64,000 bases of DNA from Tubulanus polymorphus (Eukaryota; Nemertea; Palaeonemertea; Tubulaniformes; Tubulanidae). Below are positions 5,520 through 64,000 of the stretch, piece after piece. Every line of letters starts with the position of its first letter. Within the stretch, counting starts at the first letter, position 1. Below the pieces are notes generated by a model, which was not told where the DNA came from, did no database searches, and saw only the letters and a list, made by a program, of their open reading frames with translations. Position numbers and translations under genes: made by a program. The stretch lies in assembly GCF_964204645.1 (NCBI RefSeq), contig NC_134033.1, forward strand, positions 2,787,631 through 2,851,630. Direction: 5' to 3'.

Positions 5520-8500
5520 ATGCAGCGAATGAAAGCGTTGTTCGTAGTTTTACTGATCGCTTGCGGAGACTGTATATTTACGCGGGCTGATCGCGCAAAC
5601 TCTGTCGAGGAAGCCGCGTCTGTTACAGTCAGTTCATCTTGTAACAACACTCAATACTCCGTCGATTCTACGTCTGGTTACATCGTTTCACCGAACTATC
5701 CGTCGTTAGTTCGCGGTGTTGAATGTCGTTGGTTCGTCAACAGCTCTTTACCGGGAAGTTTTCTCGTTCAAGTTTACTACGACATCGAGCCGTCGATATT
5801 CTGTAACGAAAATTACCTTCTCGTCGGTGAGTCCGACAACAAACTCTGCGCTACCGGAAAAAAACAACAAGATATCCGCAGTAACGATTTGATTTCGTTG
5901 TTTTTTAAGAGTAACGTCGATGGAGCGCGAGGTAGTCGGGTTTATATCATATATCGTTTTGAAGAACAGAGTCGTTTGAAAATTGTACATAAATGCTCAA
6001 AACGTGCAGTAAACGAATTACCAACTCAAACAGGTTATAAATTCACAATTTCTACTCGGCGATGTAAATTGTTGTTTGAATGGATCGAGATGCCAGACAG
6101 GTTTGCAATGAATTTAACGTTTATAGAGATAGATTTCAGATTAAGACCAGGTGAGGATCCGATGAAAACTCGTCCTCAAATTTACGACGGATGGAACAGC
6201 ACCAGTGAACCTATAGCTCTTATACGAGAACAAACCGGACATCCGCCTTCATCGTTTTATACTAAAACTAATAAAGCACGTATTGAATTCATTTCAAATA
6301 AACTGTCGTTTAAGTCACAGTTACTCGTGCAAGTTTACCAAATATCAGATTGGAACATCTCTAACCCGTTAATTCAAGTCTACAATAAATCAGGACTGCT
6401 CACTACAATTGATGGAATACCACATATAGTAACTCAGTCTAAACACTTATACTGCTGGTCTATCACAGTCGATGTTCTGCAGTACGTCGTCTTCAACTGG
6501 ACACGTGATCTCGTCTCGTCACCAGGTGTCGTTGGTGTATATAAACAGGAAGGATTACGTATTGTGAGAACTGATATTTTACTCAGTTTTAACCATCTTA
6601 ATTCCCTGAGTGTAAAATCAGACGGATTTCTCGTGATTCTGTGCGTTTTAACGACATCGGATTTCTCAAGATCGAATTTGAAAATAGAATTTAAAGCGAA
6701 ATCAATGACAATATCAGACGTCTACGTCGACAAACCATGGATATCGGTAAGTTTATTACAGTGATTTGTAAGTTTGGATCGTGTAATAAAATCATTGTAA
6801 TTACATATATTTTGATGGCGATTTTGACCAGTGAAACTTTACCGAGAAACTTGGAATAATAACGTAATGCGACCCAAAACACATGTTGTTTGCGCAGACA
6901 CTAATTATGATGGGTGTTGAGAATTTGGGTTAAGTTTGGAACATCTTGAACTGTTATTGATATATTTATCTAATTCTAAGTCGTAAGGAGTTTAGAATTG
7001 TCGTATTGTAAACGTTCAATGTTGTCATCGATTCTCTTATATTTCAGAATGATGTGGGCGCGAAGGATTTAACAGCTTATCGATTGTTCCCGAGAACGAG
7101 GAACACATTGTATCGTGTAGCTACATTACAACTAAACTGGAAAGTGAACATCTATGAAGAACAGTTGAAACTAACAGTGCTATCAGAAAACTGTGATCGA
7201 GCTGGTTCTTATATATTTGATGGTAGTAATTTCACAGCTAGACGCTATGGTCCGTATTGTCCTGGTTCATACTACGGTCGATCTGTCGTCAGCCTGATTA
7301 CATCAGGTGGACCGGTTACTGTAGTAGCATACGCTTATTACTATAACAATCAGTTAACAGTTGGTGATCCCAGCAGGTCATATCTTAAATTAGCTCCTAC
7401 TGATTGTGACGGTTACGTTCTACAGGATGAAGAACGTCAGATCAATATGACGTCACACTGTCTCGTGATTACACCTGAAAATCGACGCCTTCGCTCGAAA
7501 AATATTCACATATTATCAGAACACGAATATCAAATTGACCGATGTTTTCTCAAGATGTCATGGCGATGTGATCAGTTTCTGAGTTTGAGTAATCAGTTTC
7601 TTAATAACAGTCTCGTATTAAACACTGTAGATTTCACAGTTTATGAGATTGGATTCTGGCAGTATCCACTAATAGTTAAACTACGTCGTAAATGTCTAGG
7701 AGTGAAAAAAGCGGATAGTTTTGGATTTGCCGGTTCCCGTCTTCCAGTTACTACTAAAGATAAATGTGGACTCGTGCAGTCACCGAACTACCCGGGTCGG
7801 GCAGGAGGTACATTAAAATCTATTTCATATAAATTTGAAAACCCGATACAACAAAATATATTTCAATATTACAGATTTATTGTCAAATCTATTGGACTAG
7901 TTTCATGTGAAACAAACAATGCCCGTCGAAATGATCCGATCATATTGATGCAGATTATTATTTTCAACCTTTTCCTAAATGGAAAAATATCTAAAATTAT
8001 TAGTAACCAACATGAAACTAAAATATGTGAAAATAACGCGGTTCGTGGATTTATATTTCATAGTTTAACAGATAATACTCTGCGTTTTGAAGTTAATAAT
8101 CATATCCCGACATTTCAAATACAATACACTTTACACGAGTCGTTACCGATTAAACATTTCGATGATTTCTACTGTAAACAAGGATTTCTAGATTCCGGAA
8201 TTTCTTGCATCAAATTCATCAGAGATGAACGTCTGAATTGGGAGAACGCTGAAATATACTGTAGACAGAAGTTCGCGGGACATCTACTCAGTATCAACTC
8301 GGAACAGGAAATGATTTCCATCAAAAGATTATTCGCTACAGAACTTCTCCGAATGGCGTACACATTAAAAGCGCTCATAATGATGATTGGATTGAAATGG
8401 CAGGTAAGACTAATGTATTCAAATATGAATTAGAAAAGAAAGGTTTTTAAAGAGAATGATATATATTTCATTTTCTTCACGAAACAGAATGATGGTTATT

Positions 8501-11500
8501 ACACGTGCACTGACGGTAAACCATTAAGCTACGCAGAGTGGTATAAACCTGTTATTAATGAAACGATACCAGAAGTTATTCGAGGATTGATATCTCCGCT
8601 AAGAAAACAACCGATTAATGACGTCAATATGCCGTGTACGGCGATGATACTAAATAATCCACGAGGATCAGCGAACTGGGTTCGATTCCCGTGTCAAATC
8701 GAGGAGACGCACACGACATTCATTTGTGAATCTGAGAGAATCGACATCAAAAACAAACATAATTCAACGATAAACGACGCGAACAATTCAACAAATACAG
8801 GCTTAAATAAAACCAAAGATCAAATGATTCCCGATGTTACTTTAATAAATTCAACCTGTCCAAGAGGTTGGGTAACTATTACCGGACAATGTTATCAAAT
8901 ACTAACCGACTGGAAAAACAATCGAGGTTTGAATATTCGGATTGCTAGAGAAATGTGTAACAGCATCCGCACCGAAATAGTAAGAATCAACTTAAATATA
9001 GAAAGTGATATGAAAAATTTGATCAACAAATTTCAATATCGCCATCAATATGGCGCTATACTGACAATGGACCGCGGCGGATTTAAAGTTATCAAACCAC
9101 TGGTGACCAGAGATGAAATTACTTATATTCAGTCAGTTAAATGGTTATTGAAACCTTTCGATAATACAAAAGATAAAGTGCATTCCGTGTTGTGTACCTA
9201 TAATGTAACTGGTAAAGAGTTAGCTTCTATAAGCGGTTGTAAATCGTGGCAATTTGAATGTAACGATCGAAGATGTATCAGCGACCATCGCGTATGTGAT
9301 ACCAGACACGACTGTCAACACGGTGAAGATGAACTCAATTGTACGGATATCAATTTACACAGTCAGTTCCGCTGTAACGATGGACAGGTTATATCGATTA
9401 GCGGTTTCTGTGACTTTATGAGAGATTGCGTCGATGGCTCGGATGAGAACTCGTGCTATCATCCACCGTGTTTATCTACGCAATATCGCTGTTCCAATGA
9501 CCAATGCATCGATAGTTATAAACGATGTGACGGACTAGCCGACTGTAAAGACGGTTCCGATGAGATCGGATGCACTGCCGAACTTTGTCAGGGGTTCTCG
9601 TGCGCGGACGGTGAATGTATTAGTTCTCAGTTGTATCGGGATGGTGTCGTTGATTGTAGCGGAAGTCTCGAAGAAGACGAATTGGTCAATAATATGACAT
9701 TGAATCCCGAAGTTTACTGTAATAATGACAATCACTGTACGACTCGTTTCACAGATCTGTGTAAACAATCGGGTGAACAAAGATGTTCGTTCAATTCTCC
9801 TCGCTGTTATTCCCGACACGAAAGGTGTTAGAAAGGATGCCGATTGGTTTCCCGGTATGTCGAAATCTTGAACACATACTCGCGTGTAATGACTTCCAAT
9901 GCGCGGCTGGTACTGTAAAATGTCCGGCATCTTACTGTATACCGATCAGACACGTTTGTGACGGTCGATCCGATTGTCCTAATTCAGAAGATGAACGAAA
10001 CTGCGAGACTTGGTCGTGTCCGGGAATGTTTAAATGCGGCCAGGAAAATCGATGTTTTCCGCAATCTGAAGTTTGCGACGGTTTCGTAAATTGTAAACAT
10101 AACTCGGATGACGAGACATACTGTAACGTCACGTGTCCTGAACGTTGTAATTGTCGGGGCCATTTAATCGATTGTGAAGATGCTCTTTTATCAGATATTA
10201 CTGGTCAATTTATAGAATCAACTCGGGTTTTGATTTTGTCGAATAACCGAGTCGTATTTAACGAGTCGACGTTCAACTCTTTCATTTATCTTCGTTTTCT
10301 CGATATTTCGGCCAATAATTTGTCTTACATCGTTCCAAACGCGTTTTCTAATCTAAACAATCTATACACATTAGACCTTACTCACAACCGCATAACATCA
10401 TTATCTGCTAATACCTTCGCAGGTTTGATCAGTTTAGAACAACTATTTCTTATCGGAAATCCGCTGCAACATTTAGAAGACGGTAGTTTCCGAGGTCTGA
10501 TGTCACTGACTGTTCTCGATCTTCACGGACTTTCTATATCGGTTCTCGGTGGAAATGTATTTAAAGGTTTATCCGCATTACAGTCGTTAAATATCAGCAG
10601 TAACAGAATACATTATATTTCTAGCTATGCTTTTTCTGGATTGGTTCGACTTGAAATTTTAGACCTTGTCAACAATTATGAAGTAATATCCGTACAAAGA
10701 AACGTTCTTGGCGATCTTACATCATTGAAATACCTCGCTTCGGATGCTTACAAATTTTGCTGTATGGCGCCGAATGTTGACCGATGTCTTCCCGAAGCTG
10801 ATCAATTTTCGACCTGCTCTGACCTGATGGGTAACGCTGTGCTGAGAGCCATTATCTGGATGATCGCATCTTTCAGTTTTCTCGCTAACAGTATCGTTAT
10901 CTTATTTCGCGTTCAAGCTTTGCGGATGGAATCCTCCGGAACACGTAACACATCTTCAGATATCCTCATCATAAATATTGCAAGTTGTGATTTTCTGATG
11001 TCGGTCTATTTGTTTTTGATCGCGGGAGATTTTTTGATTATGCCGTCTCGCCGGGGTTATTGTCACAGTTTCGTGCGAAGGTTCCTTGACTTTTCTCTTA
11101 TTTCTAACACGTCAGAGATATTCAAATATCGTCAACCCATTTTCTAGAAGTCCGATTATAACTCCGAAATACGTTATCGGTATTTGCAGCATTTGTTGGC
11201 TCGTTATAAGCACAGTTTCTATTCTACCGCTGTCATCGTCGTCTTACTTCGGAGACAATTTTTACGGTACAACCGGAGTTTGTTTGCCTATGAATTTACT
11301 GACGATCGACGTCAATAGCTGGCACTATTCATTCGCTATTTTTGCCTTGTTTAATGCGTCCATATTGGCTACGATAATGGCGACGTACGCTCAGATGTAT
11401 AGACTAGTATCTGGAAGTAGGTCGGGCTCGGGAAGAGCCGATCCTACCGAACTTGTTTTAGCTCGAAGGAGTTTAGTAATCAATCTTTGTAATCTAGTTT

Positions 11501-11703
11501 GCTGGCTACCGATAATAATCGTTCAGTTTTGCGCCGTATTTTCGGTCGAGATACCGAACCAGGTGGCCGCTTGGCTGGCCGTTCTATTTCTACCGATCAA
11601 CTCGTCTCTGAATCCGCTTCTTTATACAATACTAACTATCGATATGAAATCTATTCGTGAACGCAATAAACGACTACTAGGATTGACGACATCCAGTAAA
11701 TAA
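5520..11703 (+). pseudogene. GRL101-like receptor, copy A (two frameshifting deletions)
   Basis: Exons 5520-6746, 7048-8403 and 8488-11703, all with GT-AG borders in phase 0. Exons 1 and 2 are open: signal peptide, CUB domains and the first part of a C-type lectin domain. Exon 3 is broken twice relative to B and D. Four bases are missing after the cysteine-rich stretch that follows LDLa 4, giving a TAG at 9829-9831. About 50 bases are missing at 11028-11051, removing the TM2-TM3 loop and start of TM3. The two losses together restore the frame, so the 7TM end is open again, but LDLa 5-6 and the LRRs are read only in the shifted frame. One lectin-domain tryptophan is also changed (YYTC, where the other copies have T-W). 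Exon 3 is otherwise almost identical to D. Likely a recent pseudogene, or a truncated secreted ectodomain ending at 9831; assembly error is possible for the 4-base loss. Confidence 0.85.
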
Positions 11704-11846: not shown

Positions 11847-13813
11847 TAAGTTTCCAGTTTCTAGGCGCCTGGCGGTCCGTCGAGATCCTCATTGTTGCGA
11901 TAAATTTGCGCTCATTTTTTGAAACATACGTTTTTATTCAATATCATACAGCTCTGCAGTGTATTGAAGTTAAATCATGGTGATTAGATATTTCGACTCC
12001 ACAAAATGTCTACTCGCCATGATTCATGTGACGTGTGGAGCTCCTTAGTTTATTCCGGAAGAGTTTGAGTCTTCCGGTCGCGATTTGGGTTGGTTTAATC
12101 GAAACGGTAGCAATCATGTCCCGAGAAAATGGCGAAAGGGCATCATTTAAAAAAACCAATATTTGAAGTTCTCTTGGATGATTCAATTAGTGACGATGGT
12201 AGTTGGTATATCAACCCTCGTCACGCGTGAGTGAACACGAAATACCCTGTTAAAATTAACCTAACCTCAGTTTCCTAGAGAGAAATAATTTATAATTTCT
12301 ACTCACCGATTTATGTGAGCAGTTTTTAGATTATCATTCAGCTCACAGGAGTTCTCTATCATACCAGGTTGGTTTAGTCAGCACACACTTGATGCAATCA
12401 GGTCCTGATGAAGTGAGGAAGTTCTGGAATCTGGAAACTTTATTTCTCGGTTTAGTCAACAATCAGATCCTGCACAGGAAGATCTTCTCTGAAAAAGCAA
12501 CTTAAGTGTTTAATGAGACTTGAATCAGCTTGAATCCGGCCTAACTTAAGTTTGACATTTAGATTTGAAATTAAAATGTCCGCTCACCGATTCATGTGTG
12601 GAACTGCATGGATTTCAATCTGTTATCGTTTCCTTGGAAGATGTGACATCCGAGCTACAGCACTAATATCTGTCCGGCCTTGTAGGTTTAGTCAGCAAAC
12701 ATTGACAGCAATTAGATCATGTGAGAAGTAGAGCTTATCTGAAAAAAAGTATTGATCTCAATTATAAATTTTAATTTGCCTCGATACATGCACATTGTAA
12801 TCTGTTATAGCCAGTATAAAAATCCTACAAATCTACTCACCACCAATTTCTGTGCGGAGCATCATGGATTATCTCAAAAATGTCTGGAGTTCACGCGTCG
12901 GTTTACTCAGCTTCGGGGTATTGGCAGCAATCAGGTCCTGAGTGAGGAATGGCTGATCTGAAAAACAACAATTTCATATTTCAGTTCTGACTGGAAGAAT
13001 CAATTTTAAGTTTAGGTTGGATGTCCGAGTGAGATCCCAGAGACAGGGAGTCAATTAGACAAAGTTATCCACGAGATGTGAACTGTCGAAAACATCCCTC
13101 GGCAACTTCCCAAATTAGTCTTTAAATTAGTGAAAAAAAACTTATAGATCTCCCTTTCTACTAACCTAAACTCACGTAAGGACCGGACATATATGCGCGT
13201 GTATAGTGAATTCAACGTGTTTTAAGAATTAATCCAAACTGGTTCAATTCAAATCGAAACGTATTCATTGATTTCAAAGACCGAAGACAATAACATGACA
13301 TAATATGAACTGAGTTTGTCATAATGCGGTTCAATGGACACGAGAACCACTGGCTACAAAATACCGGACTGACCCTGTTAATATTTTAACTTTAGAAACC
13401 TAACTAATATATGAAGTAGATATAATATCAGATATTCTCTAACAGTCCTCGTTAAAATGATATTTCTATACAGTGAATTAAATCCTTTCAAAATTGAATT
13501 AACTGAAAAATCACTTTGCAAGACAATCTGTTAATTACATTTACATTGTCTATAACTCGAATTGTCACTGAAATCGAACACGGATCATAGAACTATTTGC
13601 AATCGATTTATCAAATAAAATGAATTAAGATGATATCATCATAGGAAATATGCGATACATTCAATTAATCAAATGTCCATTGTCTGTAACTTGTTAGAAC
13701 TGTCTAAGCACCTGCAGCAACAGCAGTAGTAGTAATAGTAGCCAAGCAGGAAATACTGCTATTTATATTTATGAATTCTAGTCATCAAGATGATAAATAG
13801 AGGCTACTTTACT
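11847..13813. repeat. Intergenic block shared with the flank of copy C
   Basis: No gene. The sequence matches the downstream flank of C (31940-33548) in order, including repeated short phrases such as 'caatcaggtcctga.gaagtgagg' and 'ctcaccgatt.atgtg'. The end (13411-13813) carries a roughly 240-bp unit ('atgaagtagatataatatcag...gatatcatcatag') that recurs at 33311-33548, 36530-36770 and 37290-37515. Confidence 0.65.
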
Positions 13814-14413
13814 ACTTTTCTCTTAATTCTAACGCGTCAGAGATATTCAAATATCGTCGACCCGTGTTCTAGAAGTCCGATTATAACTCCGAAATACGTT
13901 ATCGGTATTTGCTGCATTTGTTGGGTCGTTATAAGCACAGTTTCTATTCTACCGCTGTCATCGTCGTCTTACTTCGGAGACAATTTTTACGGTACAACCG
14001 GAGTTTGTTTGCCTATGAATTTACTGACGATCGACGTCAATGGCTGGCTCTATTCCTTCGCTATTTTTGCCTTGTTCAATGCGGCCATATTGGCTACGAT
14101 AATGACGACGTACGCTCAGATGTATAGACTCGTATCTGGAAGTAGGTCGGGTTCGGGAAGAGCCGATCCTACCGAACTGGTTTTAGCTCGAAGGAGTTTA
14201 GTAATCAATCTTTGTAATTTATTTTGCTGGCTACCGATAATAATCGTTCAGTTTTGCGCCGTATTTTCGGTCGAGATACCGAACCAGGTGGCCGCTTGGC
14301 TGGCCGTTCTATTTTTACCGATCAACTCGTCTCTGAATCCGCTTCTTTATACAATACTGACGATCGATATGAAATCAATTAGAACGAGATATAAACGTCA
14401 ACAAAAGAAGTAG
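13814..14413 (+). pseudogene. Receptor fragment F: late TM3 through C-terminal tail only
   Basis: About 200 codons match exon 3 from the end of TM3 (LLILTRQRY) through TM4-TM7 (NSSLNPLLY motif) to a tail ending RTRYKRQQKK, the same tail as copy D. Everything upstream of TM3 is missing and is replaced by the intergenic repeat unit. No start codon context, signal peptide or upstream block is present, so it is a 3' truncation product. The frame is fully open, which suggests a young event. The sequence after the stop matches the 3' flank of D. Confidence 0.85.
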
Positions 14414-17002: not shown

Positions 17003-20000
17003 ATGCAGCGAATGAAAGCGTTGTTCGTAGTTTTACTGATCGCTTGCGGAGACTGTATATTTACGCGGGCTGATCGCGCAAACTCTGTCGAGGAAGCCGC
17101 GTCTGTTACAGTCAATTCATCTTGTAACAACACTCAATACTCCGTCGATTCTACGTCTGGTTACATCGTTTCACCGAACTATCCGTCGTTAGTGCGCGGT
17201 GTTGAATGTCGTTGGTTCGTCAACAGCTCTTTACCGGGAAGTTTTCTCGTTCAAGTTTACTACGACATCGAGCCGTCGATATTCTGTAACGAAAACTACC
17301 TTCTCGTCGGTGAGTCCGACAACAAACTCTGCGCTACCGGAAGAAAACAACTTGATATCGGCAGTAACGATTTGATTTCGTTGTTGTTTAGGAGTAACGT
17401 CGATGGAGCGCGAGGTAGTCGGGTTTATATCATATATCGTTTTGAAGAACAGAGTCGCTTGAAAATCTTACATACATGTCACAAGCATGCAGTGAAAGAA
17501 TTACCAACTCAAACAGGTTATGAATTCATGATTTCTACCCTCCGATGTAAATTGTTGTTAGAATGGATCGGGATGCCAGACAGGTTTGCAATGAATTTAA
17601 CGTTTATACAGATAGATTTCAGATTATATCCAGGTGAGGATCCGATGAAAACTCGTCCTCAAATTTACGACGGATGGAACAGCACCAGTGAACCTATAGC
17701 TCTTATACGAGAACAAACCGGACATCCACCTTCATCGTTTTATACTAAAACTAATAAAGCACGTATTGAAATTATTTCAAATAGAAACCCACTTTTTAAG
17801 TCGCAGTTACTCGTGCAAGTTTACCAAATATCAGATTGGAACATCTCTAACCCGTTAATTCAAGTATATAATAAATCAGGACTGCTCACTACAATTGATG
17901 GAATTCCACATATAGTAACTCAGTCTAAACACTTATACTGCTGGTCTATCACAGTCGATGTTCTGCAGTACGTCGTCTTCAACTGGACACGTGATCTCAT
18001 CTCGTCACCAGGTGTCGTTGGTGTATATAAACAGGAAGGGTTACGTATTGTGAGAACTGATATTTTACTCAGTTTTAACCATCTTAAATCTCTAAGCGTA
18101 AAATCAGACGGATTTTTCGTGATTCTGTGCGTTTTAACGACATCGGATTTTTCAAGATCGAATTTGAAAATAGAATTTGAAGTGAAATCGATGACAATAT
18201 CAGACGTCTACGTCAACAAGCCAAGGATATCGGTAAGTTTATTACAGTGATTTAGATTAGGTTCGTGTAATAGAATCAATGTAATTATCTATATTTTTAT
18301 GGCTATTTTGACCAGTGAAACTTTACCGAGAAACTTGGAATAACAACGTTATGTGTGACCCAAATTTAATATATTCGGACGCACTTGTTGTTTACGCAGA
18401 GTAATTATGATGATTAATGGAGGAATTTAAGTTAAGTTTCGATAGCTACATTTTGAACTATTATCAATATATCGAGGTCGTACAGAGTTTGAAATTGTTG
18501 TATTGTAAACGTTTAATGCTGTAATCAATTCTCTTATATTTCAGCATTTACTCACAAACCCAATATCAGTTCATCAAATGTTCCCGAGATCAAAGATTAC
18601 ATTGTATCGTGTAACTACATTACAACTAAAATGGAAAGTGAACATCTATGAAGAAAAACAGTTGAAACTAACAGTGCTATCAGAAAACTGTGATCGAGCT
18701 GGTTTTTATATATTTGATGGTAGTAATTTCACAGCTAGACGCTATGGTCCGTATTGTCCTGGTTCATACGACGGTCGATCTGTCGTCAGCCTGATTACAT
18801 CAGGTGGACCGATTACTGTAGTAGCATACGCTTATTACTATAACAATCAGTTAACAGTAGATCGTCCTGACTGGACATACGTAAGATTTGCTCCTACTGA
18901 TTGTGATGGTTATGTTCTACAGGAAGAAGAACGTCAGATCAATATGACGTCACACTGTCTCGTGATTACACCTGAAAATCGACGCCTTCGCTTGAAAAAT
19001 ATTCACATATTATCAGAACACGAATATCAAATTGACCGATGTTTTCTCAAGATGTCATTGTCATGTGACCAGTTTCTGAGTTTGAGTAATCAGTTTCTTA
19101 ATAACAGTCTTGTATTAAACACTGTAGATTTCAAAGTTTATGCGGTTGGATTTTGGCAAGGACCACTTATAGTTAAACTACGTCGTAAATGTCTAGGAGT
19201 GAAAAAATCAGATAGTTTTGGATTTTTTGGATCTCGTCTTCCAGTTACTACTAAAGATAAATGTGGACTCGTGCAGTCACCGAACTACCCGGGTTCGGCA
19301 GGAAGTACATCAAAATCTATTTCCTATAAATTTGAAAACCCAATACAACAAAATATATTTCAATATTACAGATTTATTGTCAAATCTATTGGATCAGTTT
19401 CATGCGAAACAAATAACGATATAGCGAATGCTCCGATTATTCTAATACAACTAATGAATTATAAAACTTTTCATAATGGTGGATATTTCAAAACTATTAA
19501 ATCTCAACATGAAACTAAAATATGTGAAAATAACGCGGTTCGTGGACTTATATTTCACAGTATGAAAGATAACACTTTGCGTTTTGAAGTAAACAATTTA
19601 ATTCCGACATTTCAATTGCAATACAATTTACACGAGTCGTTACCGATTAAACATTTCGATGATTTCTACTGTAAACAAGGATTTCTGGATTCGGGAATTT
19701 CCTGCATCAAATTCATCAGAGATGAACGTCTGAATTGGGAGAACGCTGAAATATACTGTAGACAGAAGTACGCGGGACATCTACTCAGTATCAACTCAGA
19801 ACAGGAAATGATTTCCATCAAAAGATTATTCGCTACAAAACTTCTCCGAATGGCGTACACATTAAAAGCGCTCATAATGACGATTGGATTAAAATGGAAG
19901 GTAAGACTAATGTATTCAAATATTAATTAAAATAGAAAGATATTTAAAGAAATGATATATTTCATTTTGTTCACGAAACAGAATGATGGTTATTACACGT

Positions 20001-23000
20001 GGACTGACGGTAAACCATTGAGCTACACAGAGTGGTATAAACCTGTTATTAATGAAACGATACCAGAAGTTATTCGAGGATTGATATCTCCGCTAAGAAA
20101 ACAACCGATAAATGACGTCAATATGCCGTGTACGGCGATGATACTGAATAATCCACGAGGATCGGCGAACTGGATTCGATTCCCGTGTCAAATCGAGGAG
20201 ACGCACACGACATTCATTTGTGAATCTGAGAGAATCGACATAAAAAACAAACACAATTCAACGATAAACGTCGAAAACAATTCAAAAAATACAGACTTGA
20301 ATAAAACAATAGATCAAATGATTCCCGATGTACCTTTAACTAATTCAACCTGTCCAAGAGGTTGGGTAACTATTTACGGACAATGTTATCAAACACAAAC
20401 CGACTGGAAAAACAATCGAGGTTTAAATATTCGTAGTGCTAGAGAAATGTGTCACAGCATCCGCGCCGAAATAGTAAGAATCACCTCAAATACAGAAAGC
20501 GACTTGAAAAATTTGATCAACGAATTTCAATATAGACATCAGTATGGCGCTATACTGACGATGGACCGCGACGGATATAAAGTTATCAAACCAATGGTGA
20601 CCAGAAATGAAATTACTTATATTCAATCAGTTAAATGGTTATTGAAACCTTTCGATGATACGAAAGATAAAGTAAATTCCGTGTTATGTACCTATAATGT
20701 AACTAGTGAAGAGTTAGCTTCTGTAAGCGGTTGTAAATCGTGGCAGTTTGAATGTAACGATCAAAGATGTATCAGCGACCATCGCGTATGTGATACCAGA
20801 CACGACTGTCAACACGGTGAAGATGAACTCGATTGTACGGATATCAATTTACACAGTCAGTTCCGCTGTAACGATGGACAGGTTATATCGATTAGCGGTT
20901 TCTGTGACTTTATGAGAGATTGCGTCGATGGCTCGGATGAGAACTCGTGCTATCATCCACCGTGTTTATCTACGCAATATCGCTGTTCCAATCACCAATG
21001 CATCGATAGTTATAAACGATGTGACGGACTTGCCAACTGTAAAGACGGTTCCGATGAGATCGGATGCACTGGCGAACTTTGTCAGGGGTTCTCGTGCGCG
21101 GACGGTGAATGTATTAGTTCTCAGTTGTATCGGGATGGTGTCGTGGATTGTAGCGGAAGTCTCGAAGAAGACGAATTGGTCACTAATATGACAGTGAATC
21201 CCGAGGTTTACTGTAATAATGAAAATAACTGCACGACTCGTTTCACAGATCTGTGTAAGGAATCGGGTGAACAAAGATGTTCGTTCAATTCTCCTCGCTG
21301 TTATTCCCGACACGAAAGGTGTATTTTAGAAAGGATGCCGATTGGTTTCCCGGTATGTAGAAATCTTGAACATATACTCGCGTGTAATGACTTCGAATGC
21401 GCGGCTGGTACTGTAAAATGTCCGGCATCTTACTGTATACCGATCAGACACGTTTGTGACGGTCGATCCGATTGTCCTAATTCAGAAGATGAACGAAACT
21501 GCGAGACTTGGTCGTGTCCGGGAATGTTTAAATGTGGCCAGGAAAATCGATGTATTCCGCAATCTGAAGTTTGCGACGGCGTCGTAAATTGTAAACATAA
21601 CTCGGATGACGAGACATACTGTAAGGTCAGGTGTCCTGAACGTTGTAATTGCCGGGGTCATTTCATCGATTGTGAAAATGCTCTTTTATCAGATATTACT
21701 GGTCGTTTTATAGAATCAACTCGGGTTTTGATTTTGTCGAATAACCGAGTCGTATTTAACGAATCGACGTTCAACTCTTTCATTTATCTTCGTTTTCTCG
21801 ATATTTCGGACAATAATTTGTCTTACATCGTTCCAAACGCGTTTTCTAATCTAAACAATCTATACACATTAGACCTAACTCACAACCGATTAACATCATT
21901 ATCTGCTAATACATTCGCAGGTTTGATCGGTTTAAAACAACTATTTCTTATCGGAAATCCGCTGCAACATTTAGAAGACGGTAGTTTCCGAGGTATGACG
22001 TCACTTACTGTTCTCGATCTTCACGGACTTTCTATATCGGTTCTCGGTGAAAATGTGTTTAAAGGTTTATCCGCATTACAGTCGTTAAATATCAGCAGTA
22101 ACAAAATACATTATATTTCTAGCTATGCTTTTTCTGGATTGGTTCGACTTGAAATTTTAGACCTTGTCAACAATTATGAAGTAATATCCGTACAAAGAAA
22201 CGTTCTTGGCGATCTTACATCATTGAAATACCTCGCTTCGGATGCTTACAAATTTTGCTGCATGGCGCCGAATGTTGACAGATGTCTTCCCGAAGCTGAT
22301 CAATTTTCGACCTGCTCCGACCTGATGGGTAACGCTGTACTGAGAGCTATCATCTGGATGATCGCATCTTTCAGTTTTCTCGCTAACAGTATCGTTATCT
22401 TATTTCGCGTTCAAGCTTTGCGGATGGAATCATCCGGGACACGTAACACATCTTCAGATATCCTCATCATAAATATTGCCGGTTGTGATTTTCTGATGTC
22501 GGTCTATTTGTTTTTGATCGCAGGAGCTGACCACGTGTTCAAAGGCGTTTATTATCTGAATTCTGAAACCTGGACGGATAGCTCATTATGTCGTCTCGCC
22601 AGGGTTATTGTCGCCGTTTCCTGCGAAGGTTCCTTGACTTTTCTCTTAATTCTAACGCGTCAGAGATATTCAAATATCGTCAACCCGTTTTCTAGAAGTC
22701 CGATTATAACTCCGAAATACGTTATCGGTTTTTGCTGCATTTGTTGGCTCGTTATAAGTACAGTTTCTATTCTACCGCTGTCATCGTCGTCTTACTTCGG
22801 AGACAATTTTTACGGTACAACCGGAGTTTGTTTGCCTATGAATTTACTGACGATCGACGTCAATGGCTGGCACTATTCATTCGCTATTTTTGCCTTGTTT
22901 AATGCGGCCATATTGGCTACGATAATGACGACGTACGCCCAGATGTATAGACTCGTATCTGGAAGTAGGTCGGGCTCGGGTAGAGCCGATCCTACCGAAC

Positions 23001-23251
23001 TGGTTTTAGCGCGAAGGAGTTTAGTAATCAATCTTTGTAATCTATTTTGCTGGCTACCGATAATAATCGTTCAGTTTTGCGCCGTATTTTCGGTCGAGAT
23101 ACCGAACCAGGTGGCCGCTTGGCTGGCCGTTCTATTTTTACCGATCAACTCGTCTCTGAATCCGCTTCTTTATACAATACTAAATATCGATATAAAATCT
23201 ATTCGTGAACGCAATAAACGACGACTAGGATTGACGACATCCAGTAAATAA
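17003..23251 (+). CDS. GRL101-like receptor, copy B: CUB / C-type lectin / LDLa / LRR / 7TM GPCR, 1951 aa
   Basis: Coding exons 17003-18232, 18545-19900 and 19982-23251; every border is GT-AG and phase 0. The ATG at 17003 is chosen because it opens the signal peptide (MQRMKALFVVLLIACGDC); the in-frame codon three upstream is GTG. Domains by residue: signal 1-23; CUB 41-147 (GYIVSPNYPS, Cys pairs 41/69 and 95/110); CUB-like 159-410 and 425-525; CUB 650-772; C-type lectin domain 786-942; second lectin-like 983-1102; LDLa modules at 1113, 1156, 1190, 1228, 1330 and 1373; LRR N-cap 1413-1430; about six LRRs 1442-1622; TM1-7 within 1647-1929 with CDF in TM2, RQRY after TM3, CWLP in TM6 and NPLLY in TM7; short tail. 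LDLa 2 and 3 keep CxDGSDE-type calcium residues; LDLa 4 is degenerate. LDLa+LRR+7TM is the type-C LGR/GRL101 plan, a cell-surface class A GPCR; ligand unknown. The added CUB and lectin domains are the unusual part. Confidence 0.9.
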
Positions 23252-25388: not shown

Positions 25389-26876
25389 ATGCAGCGAATG
25401 AAAGCGTTGTTCGTAGTTTTACTGATCGCTTGCGGAGACTGTATATTTACGCGGGCTGATCGCGCAAACTCTGTCGAGGAAGCCGCGTCTGTTACAGTCA
25501 GTTCATCTTGTAACAACACTCAATACTCCGTCGATTCTACGTCTGGTTACATCGTTTCACCGAACTATCCGTCGTTAGTGCGCGGCGTCGAATGTCGTTG
25601 GTTCGTCAACAGCTCTTTACCGGGAAGTTTTCTCGTTCAAGTTTACTACGACATCGAGCCGTCGATATTCTGTAACGAAAACTACCTACTCGTCGGTGAG
25701 TCCGACAACAAAATCTGCGCTACCGGAAGAAAACAACTAGATATCCGCAGTAACGATTTGATTTCGTTGTTGTTTAGGAGTAACGTCGATGGAGCGCGAG
25801 GTAGTCGGGTTTATATCATATATCGTTATGAAGAACAGAGTCGCTTGAAGATCTTACATACATGTTCAAAACATGCAGTTAACAAAATACCAACTGAAAC
25901 AGGTTATAAATTCACGATTTCTACCCGGCGATGTAAATTGTTGTTAGAATGGATCGGGATGCAAGACGGGTTTGCAATGAATTTAACGTTTATACAGATA
26001 GATTTCAGATTAGCACCAGGTGAGGATCCAATAAAAACTCGTCCTCAAATTTACGACGGATGGAACGGCACCAGTGAACCTATAGCTCTTATACGAGAAC
26101 AAACCGGACATCCACCTTCATCGTTTTATACTAAAACTGAAAAAGCACGTATTGAATTTATTTCAAAAGGATACCCATATTTTCAGTCGAAGCTACTCGT
26201 GCAAATTTACAAATTATCAGATTGGAACATCTCTAACCCGTTAATTCAAGTCTATTATAAATCAGGACTGCTCACTACAATTGATGGAATACCACATATA
26301 GTAACTCAGTCTAAACACTTATACTGCCGGTCTATCACTGTCGATGTTCTGCAGTACGTCGTCTTCAACTGGACACGTGATCTAGTCTCGTCACCAGGTG
26401 TCGTTGGTGTATATAAACAGGAAGGGTTACGTATTGTGAAAACTGATATTTTACTCAGTTTTAACCATCTTAAATCTCTGAGTGTAAAATCAGACGGATT
26501 TCTCGTCATTCTGTGCGTTTTGACGACATCGGATTTTTTAAGATCGAATATGAAAATAGAATTCGAAGTGAAATCAATGACAATATCAGACGTCTACGTC
26601 AACAAGCCAAGGATATGGGTAAGTTTATAACAATGATTTGTAAATTGGGTTCGTGTAATAGAATCATTGTAATAGGGTATTTGAAATTGTTGTATTGTTC
26701 AACGTGATAAAACAACGCAATAAATCGCGAGAGACGAATGAAATATGAGTCCCACAATCACAGGATCGATAAAGATTTTAAAACATCAAAACTATCTAAA
26801 TCTATTCAAAACCTCGAATTTTCGGTTTTATGCTAAAAACTATTTTCAAGAATGACTAAAAGTATGGCATTTCGCA

Positions 26877-26968
<92 letters not shown>

Positions 26969-36520: not shown

Positions 36521-36524
36521 GTAG

Positions 36525-41200: not shown

Positions 41201-44200
41201 GTGGACTGACGGTAAACCATTAAGCTACGCAGAGTGGTATAAACCTGTTATTAATGAAACGATACCAGAAGTTATTCGAGGATTGATATCTCCGCTAAGA
41301 AAACAACCGATTAATGACGTCAATATGCCGTGTACGGCGATGATACTGAATAATCCACGAGGATCAGCGAACTGGGTTCGATTCCCGTGTCAAATCGAGG
41401 AGACGCACACGACATTCATTTGTGAATCTGAGAGAATCGACATCAAAAACAAACATAATTCAACGATAAACGACGCGAACAATTCAACAAATACAGGCTT
41501 AAATAAAACCAAAGATCAAATGATTCCCGATGTTACTTTAATTAATTCAACCTGTCCAAGAGGTTGGGTAACTATTACCGGACAATGTTATCACATACTA
41601 ACCGACTGGAAAAACAATCGAGGTTTGAATATTCGGATTGCTAGAGAAATGTGTAACAGCATCCGCACCGAAATAGTAAGAATCAACTTAAATATAGAAA
41701 GTGATATGAAAAATTTGATCAACAAATTTCAATATCGCCATCAATATGGCGCTATACTGACAATGGATCGCGGCGGATTTAAAGTTATCAAACCACTGGT
41801 GACCAGAGATGAAATTACTTATATTCAGTCAGTTAAATGGTTATTGAAACCTTTCGATAATACAAAAGATAAAGTGCATTCCGTGTTGTGTACCTATAAT
41901 GTAACTGGTAAAGAGTTAGCTTCTATAAGCGGTTGTAAATCGTGGCAGTTTGAATGTAACGATCGAAGATGTATCAGCGACCATCGCGTATGTGATACCA
42001 GACACGACTGTCAACACGGTGAAGATGAACTCAATTGTACGGATATCAATTTACACAGTCAGTTCCGCTGTAACGATGGACAGGTTATATCGATTAGCGG
42101 TTTCTGTGACTTTATGAGAGATTGCGTCGATGGCTCGGATGAGAACTCGTGCTATCATCCACCGTGTTTATCTACGCAATATCGCTGTTCCAATGACCAA
42201 TGCATCGATAGTTATAAACGATGTGACGGACTAGCCGACTGTAAAGACGGTTCCGATGAGATCGGATGCACTGCCGAACTTTGTCAGGGATTCTCGTGCG
42301 CGGACGGTGAATGTATTAGTTCTCAGTTGTATCGGGATGGTGTCGTTGATTGTAGCGGAAGTCTCGAAGAAGACGAATTGGTCAATAATATGACATTGAA
42401 TCCCGAGGTTTACTGTAATAATGACAATCACTGTACGACTCGTTTCACAGATCTGTGTAAACAATCGGGTGAACAAAGATGTTCGTTCAATTCTCCTCGC
42501 TGTTATTCCCGACACGAAAGGTGTATTTTAGAAAGGATGCCGATTGGTTTCCCGGTATGTCGAAATCTTGAACACATACTCGCGTGTAATGACTTCCAAT
42601 GCGCGGCTGGTACTGTAAAATGTCCGGCATCTTACTGTATACCGATCAGACACGTTTGTGACGGTCGATCCGATTGTCCTAATTCAGAAGATGAACGAAA
42701 CTGCGAGACTTGGTCGTGTCCGGGAATGTTTAAATGCGGCCAGGAAAATCGATGTTTTCCGCAATCTGAAGTTTGCGACGGTTTCGTAAATTGTAAACAT
42801 AACTCGGATGACGAGACATACTGTAACGTCACGTGTCCTGAACGTTGTAATTGTCGGGGCCATTTAATCGATTGTGAAGATGCTCTTTTATCAGATATTA
42901 CTGGTCAATTTATAGAATCAACTCGGGTTTTGATTTTGTCGAATAACCGAGTTGTATTTAACGAGTCGACGTTCAACTCTTTCATTTATCTTCGTTTTCT
43001 CGATATTTCGGCCAATAATTTGTCTTACATCGTTCCCAACGCGTTTTCTAATCTAAACAATGTACACACATTAGACCTGACTCACAACCGCATAACATCA
43101 TTATCTGCTAATACATTCGCAGGTTTGATCAGTTTAGAACAACTATTTCTTATCGGAAATCCGCTGCAACATTTAGAAGACGGTAGTTTCCGAGGTCTGA
43201 TGTCACTGACTGTTCTCGATCTTCACGGACTTTCTATATCGGTTCTCGGTGGAAATGTATTTAAAGGTTTATCCGCATTACAGTCGTTAAATATCAGCAG
43301 TAACAGAATACATTATATTTCTAGCTATGCTTTTTCTGGATTGGTTCGACTTGAAATTTTAGACCTTGTCAACAATTATGAAGTAATATCCGTACAAAGA
43401 AACGTTCTTGGCGATCTTACATCATTGAAATACCTCGCTTCGGATGCTTACAAATTTTGCTGCATGGCGCCGAATGTTGACCGATGTCTTCCCGAAGCTG
43501 ATCAATTTTCGACCTGCTCTGACCTGATGGGTAACGCTGTGCTGAGAGCCATTATCTGGATGATCGCATCTTTCAGTTTTCTCGCTAACAGTATCGTTAT
43601 CTTATTTCGCGTTCAAGCTTTGCGGATGGAATCCTCTGGAACACGAAACACATCTTCAGATATCTTCATCATAAATATTGCCGGTTGTGATTTTCTGATG
43701 TCGGTCTATTTGTTTTTGATCGCGGGAGCTGACTACGTGTTCAAAGGCGTTTATTTTCTGTATTCTGAAACCTGGACGGATAGCTCATTATGTCGTCTCG
43801 CCGGGGTTATTGTCACCGTTTCGTGCGAAGGTTCCTTAACTTTTCTCTTAATTCTAACGCGTCAGAGATATTCAAATATCGTCAACCCGTTTTCTAGAAG
43901 TCCGATTATAACTCCGAAATACGTTATCGGTATTTGCTGCATTTGTTGGCTCGTTATAAGCACAGTTTCTATTCTACCGCTGTCATCGTCGTCTTACTTC
44001 GGAGATAATTTTTACGGTACAACCGGAGTTTGTTTGCCTATGAATTTACTGACGATCGACGTCAATGGCTGGCACTATTCATTCGCTATTTTTGCCTTGT
44101 TTAATGCGGCCATATTGGCTACGATAATGACGACGTACGCTCAGATGTATAGACTCGTATCTGGAAGTAGGTTGGGCTCGGGTAGAGCCGATCCTACCGA

Positions 44201-44438
44201 ACTGGTTTTAGCTCGAAGGAGTTTAGTAATCAATCTTTGTAATCTATTTTGTTGGCTACCGATAATAATCGTTCAGTTTATCGCCGTATTTTCGGTCGAG
44301 ATACCGAACCAGGTGGCCGCTTGGCTGGCCGTTCTATTTTTACCGATCAACTCGTCTCTGAATCCGCTTCTTTATACAATACTAACTATCGATATGAAAT
44401 CAATTAGAACGAGATATAAACGTCAACAAAAGAAGTAG
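38210..44438 (+). CDS. GRL101-like receptor, copy D: CUB / C-type lectin / LDLa / LRR / 7TM GPCR, 1942 aa
   Basis: Exons 38210-39439, 39756-41099 and 41184-44438, all phase 0 with GT-AG borders; open throughout. Domain order is as in B: signal peptide, CUB and CUB-like domains, C-type lectin domain split by intron 2, second lectin-like domain, six LDLa modules, LRR N-cap and LRRs, 7TM with NPLLY. Exon 2 starts with different residues from the other copies (ISNLVISISAND) and is shorter in the loop near 40320-40350 (NSTGGFVFWQEP). The tail ends RTRYKRQQKK, unlike B and C (GLTTSSK) but like fragment F. Exon 3 is almost identical to that of A up to the 7TM region. One TM6 residue differs (QFIAVF for QFCAVF). 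A poly(A) signal follows 20 bp after the stop. Likely a functional cell-surface GPCR; ligand unknown. Confidence 0.9.
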
Positions 44439-46771: not shown

Positions 46772-51613
<4,842 letters not shown>

Positions 51614-54613: not shown

Positions 54614-54777
54614 GTTGAAACTCAGAGAGACCCGTAATCAGTTGCTCTGCAGTAACACAACCTCTCTCTCTCTCTTTCTTGCTCTCTCTCTATATCTGAC
54701 ACCCTGATGATGGATCTGTGCAATAAAATAACACCCATCGTTCTCCGCGTCTCTCATCCCAACCCCTATCATCAAAC

Positions 54778-55021
<244 letters not shown>

Positions 55022-56545: not shown

Positions 56546-57291
56546 ATGTTCGGCATATTCTGGATTTTAGCAGTTTTCCGCTGCACTGGAGGTAAAATTT
56601 AATGAATATCGCTTCTTTTTACCAATTCATTTTTGATGAAATCAATATTACCAATTTGACATTGGATTCGGTTGATTTGTTTTCAAGGAGTTAAAGCCAA
56701 AATACCACAATTTAAGAATAAATATCTATCAGCCATCATCAAGTGGATTGACGATGGCTTTTTAGGGAACAGTTTGGCTTTTAGGGAACAGTTGAAGTGT
56801 TGTGACATAATCAACTTTTCAATCCTTGATTATCTCTAATTTTTTTCAATTGCGGAATCTTGCTTAATTTTTTTACTGATTTACGCGTTTGAATTACTGT
56901 GGTAACTATTGATGGCAAATTCAAAAATTCGTTCCAACATAACTTTAAAAACTTATCTTTAGTCTGTGAGCTATCTAAACTATGTTCAACTTCTTTGTGG
57001 GACTGGGCCCTGTTTGAATCATGAAATGAGCGTTCATTTTATTTTGGAGTAATCTATAAGACGAATTAGACGATTGCTCCAAAGACGATTTCTTCAAAAT
57101 TTCACCAATAGCATTCATCTATGTTTACAGCGTTCAAGATTCCTTACGAGGATCCGCTTTATAAAGATGGTAAGTTCATTTTGTACGATTCATATACGGA
57201 AATGAAAAAGATTCCTTTCAATTAATTGAACAGACTTTAATGAATTGCATTTGTAAAAAGGTAGCAAAAAACATTAAACCAAAAATACTCG

Positions 57292-57363
57292 TTCCCACAC
57301 CGGGAATCGAACCCGGGCCGCCTGGGTGAAAGCCAGGAATCCTAACCACTAGACCATATGGGA
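57292..57363 (-). tRNA. tRNA-Glu (anticodon TTC)
   Basis: The minus strand folds as a full cloverleaf: acceptor TCCCATA/TGTGGGA, D-arm with GGTCTAGTGGTTAGG, anticodon stem CCTGG/CCAGG with loop CTTTCAC (anticodon TTC at 57328-57330), T-arm CCCGG-GTTCGATT-CCCGG, discriminator A. It has 72 bases, no intron and no encoded CCA. It lies on the opposite strand in the intron between the second and third astacin exons. Intact pol III A- and B-box sequences suggest it is functional. Confidence 0.95.
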
Positions 57364-62573: not shown

Positions 62574-62856
62574 GAAAAAATTGCGCGTGATTATAAACAC
62601 GATATATTGAAGCACGTCTAAATTTAGAAACTGCGGTAATTACAGCGAAACCGAGAACAGATGAAAGTTTCACAAATACGAGACTGGCGCCAGTTTGATG
62701 GGCGGATTTTTAACAAAATAATTGGACTCGATCAATTCGTCAACTTCTGCCATTTGCGAATTCGTCATTACTTTGCAGCTACTCGTTAGTGAAATATCGC
62801 GCAAACTTAGAAATAGTTAGAAATGTGTTTGTTTTGAAGCGTGAATTGTGTTCAAT
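62574..62856 (+). promoter_or_regulatory. Conserved upstream block of receptor E
   Basis: CTGGCGCCAG at 62694-62703 is intact. The first palindrome has one change (ACTGCGGT), unique among the five copies. Confidence 0.45.
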
Positions 62857-64000
62857 ATGCAGCGAATGAAAGCGTTGTTCGTAGTTTTACTGATCGCTTG
62901 CGGAGACTGTATATTTACGCGGGCTGATCTGGCAAACTCTGTCGAGGAAGCCGCGTCTGTTACAGTCAGTTCATCTTGTAACAACACTCAATACTCCGTC
63001 GATTCTACGTCTGGTTACATCGTTTCACCGAACTATCCGTCGTTAGTTCGCGGTGTTGAATGTCGTTGGTTCGTCAACAGCTCTTTACCGGGAAGTTTTC
63101 TCGTTCACGTTTATTACGACATCGAGCCGTCGATATTCTGTAACGAAAACTACCTTCTCGTCGGTGAGTCCGACAACAAACTCTGCGCTACCGGAAGAAA
63201 ACGACTTGATATCCTCAGTAACGGTTTGATTTCGTTGTTGTTTAGGAGTAACGTCTATGGAGTGCGAGGTAGTCGGGTTTATATCATATATCGTTTTGAA
63301 GAACGCTCGAAAATCTTACATAGATGTTACAAACATGCAGTAAAAGAATTACCAACTCAAGCAGGTTATGAATTCATGATTTCTAGCGGGCGATGTAAAT
63401 TGTTGTTAGAATGGATCGGGATGCCAGACGGGTTTGCAATGAATTTAACGTTTTTACAGATAGATTTCAGGTTATATCCCGGTAATGATCCAATGAAAAC
63501 TCTTCCTCAAATTTACGACGGATGGAACAGCACCAGTGAACCTATAGCTCTTATACGAGAACAAACCGGACATCCACCTTCATCGTTTTATACTAAAACT
63601 AATAAAGCACGTATTGAAATTGAAAGAAGTTGGAAGTCGAAGTTACTCGTGCAAGTTTACAAAATATCAGATTGGAACATCTCTAACCCATTAATTCAAG
63701 TCTATATTAAATCAGGACTGCTCACTACAAGTGATGGAATACCACATATAGTAACTCAGTCTAAACACTTATACTGCTGGTCTATCACAGTCGATGTTCT
63801 GCAGTACGTCGTCTTCAACTGGACACGTGATCTCGTCTCGTCACCAGGTGTCGTTGGTGTATATAAACAGGAAGGGTTACGTATTGTGAGAACTGATATT
63901 TTACTCAGTTTTAACCATCTTAAATCTCTGAGTGTAAAATCAGACGGATTTCTCGTGATTCTGTGCGTTTTAACGACATCGGATTTTTTAAGATCGAATT
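62857..64000 (+). CDS. GRL101-like receptor, copy E, exon 1 (cut by the window end)
   Basis: ATG at 62857 opens the same signal peptide (MQRMKALFVVLLIACGDC) and CUB domain as the other copies, and the frame stays open to the window end (381 codons). Two in-frame length changes set it apart: two codons lost at about 63304 (EERSK) and five at about 63622 (IEIERSWKSK in place of IEIISNRNPLFKSQ). Both lie in the CUB-like parts where the other copies also vary. One glycan-rich stretch (FVNSSLPGS) is unchanged. The rest of the gene is outside the window. Confidence 0.85.
   Translation, partial: MQRMKALFVVLLIACGDCIFTRADLANSVEEAASVTVSSSCNNTQYSVDSTSGYIVSPNYPSLVRGVECRWFVNSSLPGSFLVHVYYDIEPSIFCNENYLLVGESDNKLCATGRKRLDILSNGLISLLFRSNVYGVRGSRVYIIYRFEERSKILHRCYKHAVKELPTQAGYEFMISSGRCKLLLEWIGMPDGFAMNLTFLQIDFRLYPGNDPMKTLPQIYDGWNSTSEPIALIREQTGHPPSSFYTKTNKARIEIERSWKSKLLVQVYKISDWNISNPLIQVYIKSGLLTTSDGIPHIVTQSKHLYCWSITVDVLQYVVFNWTRDLVSSPGVVGVYKQEGLRIVRTDILLSFNHLKSLSVKSDGFLVILCVLTTSDFLRSN

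Follow-up and report, generated by a model that had tools for sequence, protein, structure and literature searches.

Relaxin- or insulin-like peptides are the known or proposed ligands of type C LGRs (PMC8286064, PMC11863921). GRL101 of Lymnaea is described as carrying multiple LDLa modules and LRRs together with a class A 7TM (PMC8286064). In the snail Biomphalaria sudanica, the schistosome-resistance-associated region SudRes2 contains a cluster of GRL101-like receptors of the CTL-LDL-LRR-7TM plan; gene content varies between haplotypes, and the validated resistance variant sits in a neighbouring Zn-RING-IAP gene (PMC12297450). Two echinoderm GRL101-like proteins, P0062 of the sea urchin Lytechinus and P0064 of the crinoid Antedon, have CUB, C-type lectin, LDLa, LRR and 7tm_1 in this order of their best Pfam stretches.

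The locus considered here is a 64-kb window (64,000 nucleotides) of the nemertean Tubulanus polymorphus. With a probability of about 0.7, it holds a cluster of type C2 (GRL101-type) LRR GPCRs with a CUB/CTLD head that arose by recent tandem duplication and whose intact members are encoded by three exons as single-chain receptors. The predicted chain would consist of a signal peptide, a CUB domain, an ectodomain stretch of ~600 residues, one firm and one degenerate CTLD, six LDLa modules, LRRs and a class A 7TM. The initial annotation had regarded CUB and lectin domains on the LDLa-LRR-7TM plan as undescribed, which is contradicted by the same domain order in P0062 and P0064 and by the CTL-bearing GRL101 cluster described for the snail (PMC12297450).

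Organization of the cluster

Five copies, A to E, form a head-to-tail array on one strand of the window (Table 1), in agreement with the at least five initially proposed, and copies A-D are 89-98% identical exon by exon. The accompanying description as an array of giant receptors suits copies B and D, the only ones in the window with uninterrupted reading frames, but not copies A and C, which are frame-broken, nor copy E, which is incomplete at the window end. Exon 3 of copy A is interrupted by a 4-nt deletion where it encodes LDLa and by deletions of 24 and 26 nt where it encodes the 7TM; the copy is a probable pseudogene or would encode a truncated product. In copy C, a frame-breaking 13-nt deletion falls in the LRR part of exon 3. 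Over 567-887 bp, the 7TM-only fragment matches copies A to D at 95.9-96.8% identity. Copies D and E are separated by ~18 kb with other ORFs, and a reverse transcriptase is located between copies C and D.

Table 1. Features of the receptor cluster (positions in the window; aa, residues of the copy B product).
Feature	Position	Strand	Evidence and remarks
Copy starts	A 5520, B 17003, C 25389, D 38210, E 62857	+	
Copy A	5520..11703	+	Exon 1 (5520-6746) and exon 2 (7048-8403) open; exon 3 (8488-11703) broken
7TM-only partial copy	13775..14413	+	Homology from 13814; 7tm_1 E=1.5e-15
Copy B exon 1	17003..18232	+	Open frame, donor GTAAGT; putative signal peptide, likely CUB, further ectodomain without domain match
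Copy B likely CUB domain	17123..17443	+	aa about 41-147; Pfam (under cut-off), hhalign
Copy B exon 2	18545..19900	+	Acceptor TTTCAG, donor GTAAGA, phase 0; ectodomain without domain match, then first half of CTLD1
Copy B C-type lectin-like domain 1 (CTLD1)	19667..20239	+	aa 785-948; split by intron 2 (19901-19981); Lectin_C 3e-6
Copy B exon 3	19982..23251	+	Open frame, Pfam; second half of CTLD1, CTLD2-like segment, six LDLa, LRRs, 7TM, stop
Copy B candidate degenerate second lectin-like domain (CTLD2)	20342..20719	+	aa about 983-1108; weak evidence only
Copy B LDLa block	20732..21619	+	PF00057 1.3e-33, 6 stretches
Copy B leucine-rich repeats	21620..22315	+	LRR_8 2e-29, 3 stretches
Copy B class A 7TM	22334..23173	+	7tm_1 9.2e-22
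Copy C	25389..31789	+	Exon 1 (25389-26618) and exon 2 (27102-28451) open; exon 3 (28533-31789) broken
Copy D exon 1	38210..39439	+	Open frame; CUB E=0.0015, under Pfam cut-off
Copy D exon 2	39756..41099	+	Open frame; Lectin_C start alone E=0.063
Copy D exon 3	41184..44438	+	Open frame; 15-nt gap near end when aligned to B
Copy E exon 1	62857..63999	+	Runs off window end

Receptor core and family placement

The core of the receptor is as first annotated, with Pfam placing six LDLa modules, LRR_8 and 7tm_1 in that order. Six separate hydrophobic stretches exceed the threshold of a KD19 scan between aa 1648 and 1903 of copy B (seven entries, two of which overlap); the seventh helix is taken from the Pfam match. 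The 7TM retains CWLP and NPLLY and has QRY where D/ERY is expected; this variant, found in none of the 22 other rows of the 7TM alignment, counts against the favoured reading.

Among solved LRR+7TM proteins, relaxin receptor 1 (RXFP1) is the best relative of exon 3 (251 bits, best stretch residues 623-1073), followed by LGR4 (154 bits, best stretch in the LRR), the lutropin receptor LHCGR (118) and FSHR (96). Judged by score alone, the LRR/7TM part has its nearest relatives in the type C (relaxin) group, with type A and B LGRs further away. The best matches to exon 3 include GRL101-like proteins which, together with the multiple LDLa modules, LRRs and class A 7TM, bear out the kinship to GRL101 and type C LGRs named at the outset. 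In an unrooted 7TM tree of 24 rows, rebuilt after four long rows and P0057 had been removed and with no type A/B outgroup, B and D share a long branch, split support is 84/83, and an Acanthaster protein named 'relaxin receptor 2-like' is placed among GRL101-like rows; the position of B and D on this tree is unsure.

Divergence among copies

The longest runs shared between copies exceed those of all 2000 shuffles in five of the six pairs and of 1997 of 2000 in the sixth; the copies are mosaics, and the locus is best read as a recently duplicated, gene-converting cluster. The most divergent exon is exon 2, which encodes outer ectodomain (8-11%); with copy C left out, divergence in intron 1 is 8-15%, near that of exon 2. 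Pooled over copies that include the broken ones, pN/pS is 0.20-0.21 in the C-terminal half of CTLD1 and in the 7TM, and 0.35-0.40 in CTLD2, LDLa and LRR. Pairwise dN/dS lies at 0.38-0.80 for exon 1 and 0.43-0.65 for exon 2. Some windows exceed a pN/pS of 1, for example codons 101-140 of exon 1 (1.66) and codons 1-40 of exon 2 (1.48), on small counts per pair (0.9 synonymous/5.0 nonsynonymous; 3.5/18.3); codons 21-60 of exon 2 show zero synonymous change, and in the most variable patch, codons 281-320 of exon 2, pS (0.46) is greater than pN (0.24). Because the window counts are small, positive selection is not claimed.

These patterns bear on a possible, if unlikely, alternative, in which the copies are ordinary peptide-hormone receptors that bind an insulin/IGF/relaxin-like peptide via LRR and LDLa, the head being accessory and the copies dosage variants. 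It would match the relaxin- and insulin-like peptides known or proposed as ligands of other type C LGRs (PMC8286064, PMC11863921), and LDLa and 7TM have changed less than the rest of exon 3 (pooled pN 0.015 and 0.018). However, at least two of the five copies are broken, the copies are mosaic and their divergence peaks in exon 2, a combination that would seem odd for a hormone receptor.

Lectin-like and CUB domains

Two lectin-type domains had been annotated, of which the first is firm. CTLD1 reaches 28.4 bits against Lectin_C, above the curated cut-off of 22.6, when scanned as a separate piece, and is absent from the whole-protein Pfam scan. On a family CTLD profile, the exon 2 half covers positions 4-63 (25 bits), the exon 3 half positions 79-145 (30 bits), and the joined domain scores 59 bits. 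Of 23 matches of exon 2 to PDB sequence profiles, 21 fall on the start of the CTLD (best E=0.0088) and two are chance-level matches elsewhere. CTLD1 aligns to the CTLDs of P0062 and P0064 at 28-31%. Sugar-binding C-type lectins usually have the calcium-site motifs EPN/QPD and WND; at these places CTLD1 has QPI and WIR and so lacks the usual sugar-site motifs. The second domain is weak: Pfam gives UL45 at E=0.12 in copy B and no lectin-type match for the segment in copy D, and the family CTLD profile matches over its first third only (E 0.0059 in B, 0.055 in D). The homologous segment of P0060 matches Lectin_C at E=0.016.

As for the several CUB domains of the initial annotation, one region is supported. 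At aa 31-150, Pfam CUB scores 17.5 bits in B (E=0.0053) and 19.3 bits in D (E=0.0015), short of the curated cut-off of 21.4, and hhalign against a CUB profile built from relatives gives 92.5%, compared with 0.1-4.9% for ten column-shuffles. With the same profile, hmmsearch at default filters finds no match in B or D, and with the filters off just 9-10 bits at aa 53-110. Kinship of this region to CUB domains is likely on these profile comparisons. Five further ectodomain segments were compared with CUB by hhalign, with weak values for two of them (5.5% and 8.0%) and no signal in the other three (0.2-0.5%); the ~600 ectodomain residues after the CUB region are without an assigned domain and possibly CUB-like.

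AlphaFold2 models had a mean pLDDT of 27.1 for exon 1, based on five copies, and of 27.2 for exon 2, based on four, and were set aside. Exon 1 has four matches to PDB sequence profiles, all at chance level (best PsaF, E=0.44), and the chance-level matches of copy B exon 1 alone include neuropilin-2 (E=0.71). A protein search with aa 30-1150 of copy B returns a single match, a mannose receptor at E=0.3, and no relative below that value. None of the 56 matches listed in a full-length protein search is a relative with precomputed CUB or Lectin_C, in a search that is not exhaustive, P0062 being within its length range yet missing from those matches. A plasmid search gives no match, as expected.

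Exon structure of copies B and D

The four joins put forward initially (18232/18545, 19900/19982, 39439/39756 and 41099/41184) hold in the sequence: all introns are GT-AG and phase 0, and joining the three exons leaves no internal stop and yields products of 1951 aa in B and 1942 aa in D. A KD19 scan of copy B finds an N-terminal segment at aa 3-24, a putative signal peptide, and nothing above threshold between aa 24 and 1648. CTLD1 spans exons 2 and 3, and the join between them is therefore supported; for the exon 1/exon 2 join, the basis is confined to splice sites, frame and signal peptide. The database protein LOC141911221 of T. polymorphus is identical to copy B in pieces. P0057, the sole database model found for copy B, begins within exon 2 and skips three parts of exon 3, and one of these three gaps is compatible with GT-AG. 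Truncation of this model is probable and may mean that arrays of this kind are under-reported.

The start of P0057 in exon 2 and the basis of the first join would fit a reading in which exon 1, or exons 1-2, forms a gene of its own encoding a secreted CUB protein and the GPCR starts in exon 2 or 3. This arrangement is very unlikely, since CTLD1 is complete only with exons 2 and 3 joined, the same GT-AG sites are conserved in all four copies A-D, and a receptor without exon 1 shows no signal peptide in the KD19 scan. Equally hard to credit is a decaying cluster, mainly of pseudogenes kept similar by gene conversion and without special function, which would account for the broken copies A and C, the 7TM fragment, the reverse transcriptase between C and D and an exon 2 divergence close to what intron 1 shows when copy C is left out, but not for the ~1950 open codons of B and D or for pN/pS below 1 in LDLa, LRR and 7TM (broken copies being in the pool).

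Possible function and comparison with known receptors

In the favoured cluster of single-chain receptors, the CUB/CTLD head would bind a ligand, either protein or glycan. As in relaxin receptors, the LDLa/LRR stem would relay this binding to the 7TM, which would then activate a G protein. The copies would vary most in the outer ectodomain of exon 2, with the signalling part held alike. By analogy with the snail GRL101 cluster, the likeliest use, and a plausible one, would be to recognise surface molecules, external or self, in an immune, chemosensory or reproductive setting. Three scattered records, namely the sea-urchin and crinoid proteins, the snail parasite-resistance region and the nemertean cluster, can be joined as one candidate class of GPCRs that carry a recognition head. 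If this class recognises non-self, it would be an animal GPCR-based recognition repertoire among receptors hitherto discussed chiefly as hormone receptors. A much more speculative proposal, given little credence here, is that CUB/CTLD-headed type C2 LGRs are an old bilaterian class of G-protein-coupled pattern- or self-recognition receptors that expanded repeatedly in tandem (snail, nemertean, perhaps starfish), with outer ectodomains reshuffled by gene conversion among clustered copies and pseudogenes into individual-specific repertoires.

RXFP1, a type C1 LGR, shares LDLa, LRR and 7TM with the array; it carries one LDLa and is not known to have a CUB or CTLD. Lymnaea GRL101 differs in being described with twelve LDLa modules and six LRRs, and the passages describing it mention no CUB/lectin head (PMC8286064). 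The SudRes2 cluster resembles the array in its GRL101-type GPCRs, their C-type lectin, LDL-A and LRR ectodomains and the presence of incomplete members; it differs in that CUB is not named once in the main text and in belonging to a resistance-linked region of a snail (PMC12297450); the nemertean array is known from sequence. Among the matches listed, no paper naming a CUB on a GRL101-type receptor was found. The 'ena' proteins P0058-P0060 match 97-100% of the LDLa-LRR-7TM query at 37-38% identity, and P0058 and P0060 can also be aligned to the C-terminal half of CTLD1 and, weakly, to the CTLD2-like segment, but they are predicted proteins without the N-terminal exons. The closest in plan, P0062 and P0064, differ in their length of 1485-1495 aa, in one clear CUB apiece and in a shorter stretch before the lectin, and P0064 also has two extra SRCR stretches and two Lectin_C stretches by Pfam count. 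Beside these proteins and the snail receptors, the array seems to add a new branch to a family that has received little study, and does not seem to amount to a new kind of system.

A five-copy receptor array

The tandem array is genuine: on the forward strand of the window, a three-exon gene for a giant LRR-GPCR lies head-to-tail in five copies, here called A to E. The exon joins that the initial annotation had proposed for B and D are correct, as their introns (312 and 81 nt in B, 316 and 84 nt in D) are GT-AG and phase 0, and the products, of 1951 and 1942 aa, are receptors of unusual size. Copies A and C share these splice sites, and their first two exons are open; their exon 3 is disrupted, by deletions of 4, 24 and 26 nt in A and by a 13-nt deletion in C; copy E is truncated at the window end.

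The case for placing exons 2 and 3 in one gene is strong, since the two halves of the first lectin-like domain (CTLD) match successive parts of the profile, positions 4-63 for the exon 2 half (25 bits) and 79-145 for the exon 3 half (30 bits), and the joined domain scores higher, with 59 bits. The corresponding argument for exons 1 and 2 is weaker, and it draws on splice sites and phase common to four copies and on the hydrophobic segment at aa 3-24 of exon 1, the only N-terminal one above threshold.

Among the best 120 of 240 exon 3 matches, the first is a T. polymorphus database protein, P0057 (LOC141911221, 689 aa), with 75% identity there, a value lowered by gaps. It is identical to copy B in four blocks, 681 residues in total, and it opens with the last eight residues of copy B exon 2, so that it starts within exon 2 and misses three exon 3 pieces, while GT-AG fits only one of its three exon 3 gaps. 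The deposited model of copy B thus looks truncated.

Besides the array, the window holds several other features (see table). The reverse transcriptase ORF between copies C and D is probably part of a broken retroelement; the adjoining ORF (36185-36646) had no Pfam match. The two tandem segments contain small GPCR-like ORFs on the reverse strand, with a weak 7tm_1 match in both and Srsx in one. The ORFs with the weak ankyrin match perhaps encode a channel, and a PDB search with them returned chance-level matches only, including PKD2L1 (E=0.34-0.52).

Features of the window outside the five copies
Feature	Position	Strand	Remarks
7TM-only fragment	13814-14413
RVT_1 reverse transcriptase ORF	34985-36646	-	RVT_1 2.6e-28 in 34985-35995 (Pfam)
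ORFs with weak ankyrin match at start and hydrophobic end	46772-51613	+	Pfam
Two tandem segments, 80% identical	49115-50519, 53533-54979		between D and E
tRNA-Glu (ttc)	57291-57363	-	ARAGORN

Domains of the ectodomain

In copy B, six LDLa modules, LRR_8 and 7tm_1 are firm Pfam assignments, and at E up to 1 the full-length protein gives neither CUB nor Lectin_C. When scanned as a piece, the domain across the exon 2/3 joint is recognised as Lectin_C (3e-6). The first CUB region, scanned likewise, reaches 0.0053 in B and 0.0015 in D, both below the Pfam cut-off. Against a CUB profile of the relatives (47 entries, representing 23 distinct domains from 13 proteins), the same region scored 92.5% in hhalign, compared with 0.1-4.9% for ten column-shuffles. 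Five other segments of exons 1-2 gave 5.5, 0.2, 0.3, 0.5 and 8.0% (the last based on nine columns), with a shuffle maximum of 4.3%. With this profile, hmmsearch of B and D found no match at default filters; once the filters were off, aa 53-110 scored 9-10 bits. From these Pfam, hhalign and hmmsearch scores, of the "several" CUB domains initially annotated one is likely, two further segments are weak hints, and three are unassigned.

Similarly, one of the two lectin-type domains originally described is firm, and the second is only weakly indicated. Pfam gives UL45 (E=0.12) for the latter in copy B and no match in copy D, and the family CTLD profile covers its first third only (0.0059 in B, 0.055 in D). 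Homologous segments of two exon 3 relatives match Lectin_C at 0.016 (P0060) and UL45 at 0.0098 (P0058).

Divergence among the copies

Copies A-D differ by 3-6% in exon 1, 8-11% in exon 2 and 2-5% in exon 3; in intron 1, the divergence is 8-15% among A, B and D and about 33-35% where copy C is compared. On these figures, exon 2, within the outer ectodomain, is the most diverse part, which refers to diversity alone and makes no claim of positive selection. Between pairs of copies, dN/dS ranges from 0.38 to 0.80 for exon 1 and from 0.43 to 0.65 for exon 2. In exon 3, pN/pS, pooled over pairs and including the broken copies A and C, is 0.20 for the C-terminal CTLD half and linker, 0.38 for the second lectin-like domain, 0.35 for LDLa, 0.40 for LRR and 0.21 for 7TM. 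The most variable 300-base coding stretch (19339-19638, copy B exon 2), with 13-21% between copies, lies upstream of the CTLD and has pS > pN.

The closest partners vary along the gene: B pairs with D over the whole of exon 1 (2.8%), A with D over most of exon 3 (53 of 57 two-against-two sites), and other pairs are closest near the C-terminus. For five of the six pairs, the longest run in common exceeds 2000/2000 site-order shuffles, and for the sixth 1997/2000, counts that are only indicative because rate variation along the gene also alters them. As read from the sequences, such partner switching with long shared runs is a signature of gene conversion or unequal crossing-over.

Motifs and predicted function

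In relaxin receptors, the LDLa module can act on the 7TM domain once ligand has bound to the LRR; in the Tubulanus copies, the CUB/CTLD head would add an extra binding surface for proteins or glycans. Sugar-binding CTLDs usually carry EPN or QPD and WND; the firm CTLD has QPI and WIR at these positions, which makes classical calcium-dependent sugar binding unlikely, and protein binding would be the likelier role. The 7TM domain keeps CWLP and NPLLY, and in B and D it has QRY at the D/ERY position (22661-22669 in copy B), with Q in 0 of the 22 other rows compared; five starfish rows depart otherwise, with C or S instead of R. QRY may alter basal activity. By analogy, these receptors would most likely serve in recognition.

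Relation to known receptors

LDLa, LRR and 7tm_1 are combined, by precomputed domains, in 26 of the best 120 of 240 exon 3 matches, including P0057; 13 of these 26 also carry CUB, and two, Lytechinus variegatus P0062 and Antedon mediterranea P0064, carry both CUB and Lectin_C. A search with the full-length protein gave precomputed CUB or Lectin_C in 0 of the 56 matches listed. For six of these proteins, domain order was taken from the best stretches in Pfam. In Patiria P0072 and P0078, the best LDLa precedes the best CUB, unlike in the Tubulanus copies. The CUB-bearing GRL101-like proteins P0072, P0078 and P0087 of Patiria have close LOC numbers and the same contig size value (17541389), as do P0080 and P0085 of Acanthaster (1110468); clusters in starfish as well are suggested.

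GRL101 is a type C2 LGR according to excerpts of PMC11863921, and it has been proposed as a second IGF receptor (excerpts of PMC8286064); in a starfish, the level of one GRL101 in sensory tentacles exceeds that in tube feet (excerpts of PMC6267866). The excerpts of PMC4079206 and PMC11521371 contain nothing on CUB heads, and no CUB named on a GRL101 receptor was found among the papers listed or in the excerpts of open-licence PMC text. Lectin-C, CUB and LDLa are present in Adhesion GPCRs, another GPCR family, of amphioxus (excerpts of PMC2246102). In a snail, as excerpted from PMC12297450, GRL101-like genes whose ectodomain combines C-type lectin, LDL and LRR, ten of them full and two partial, sit in a 440-kb region associated with schistosome resistance, of which the validated variant concerns a neighbouring Zn-RING-IAP gene; the CTL domain is termed unique to those genes, yet six genes elsewhere are annotated with GRL101, CTL and LDL domains.

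The copy B CTLD matches P0062 at 31% (56 bits) and P0064 at 28% (59 bits), whereas a mannose-receptor domain (P0175) scores 44 bits; Diadema P0070, however, reaches only 40 bits. An ancient head common to nemertean and echinoderm receptors would fit, short of proof. The initial annotation knew of no described system with this combination, but the same kind already exists in other phyla, in P0062 and P0064 and, as far as the C-type lectin goes, in the snail (PMC12297450). The receptors belong to the GRL101-type LGRs that bear a CUB/lectin head, which is a known kind: P0062 and P0064 share the order CUB, Lectin_C, LDLa, LRR, 7tm_1 with the Tubulanus copies, from which the Antedon protein differs in an SRCR domain ahead and two Lectin_C stretches.
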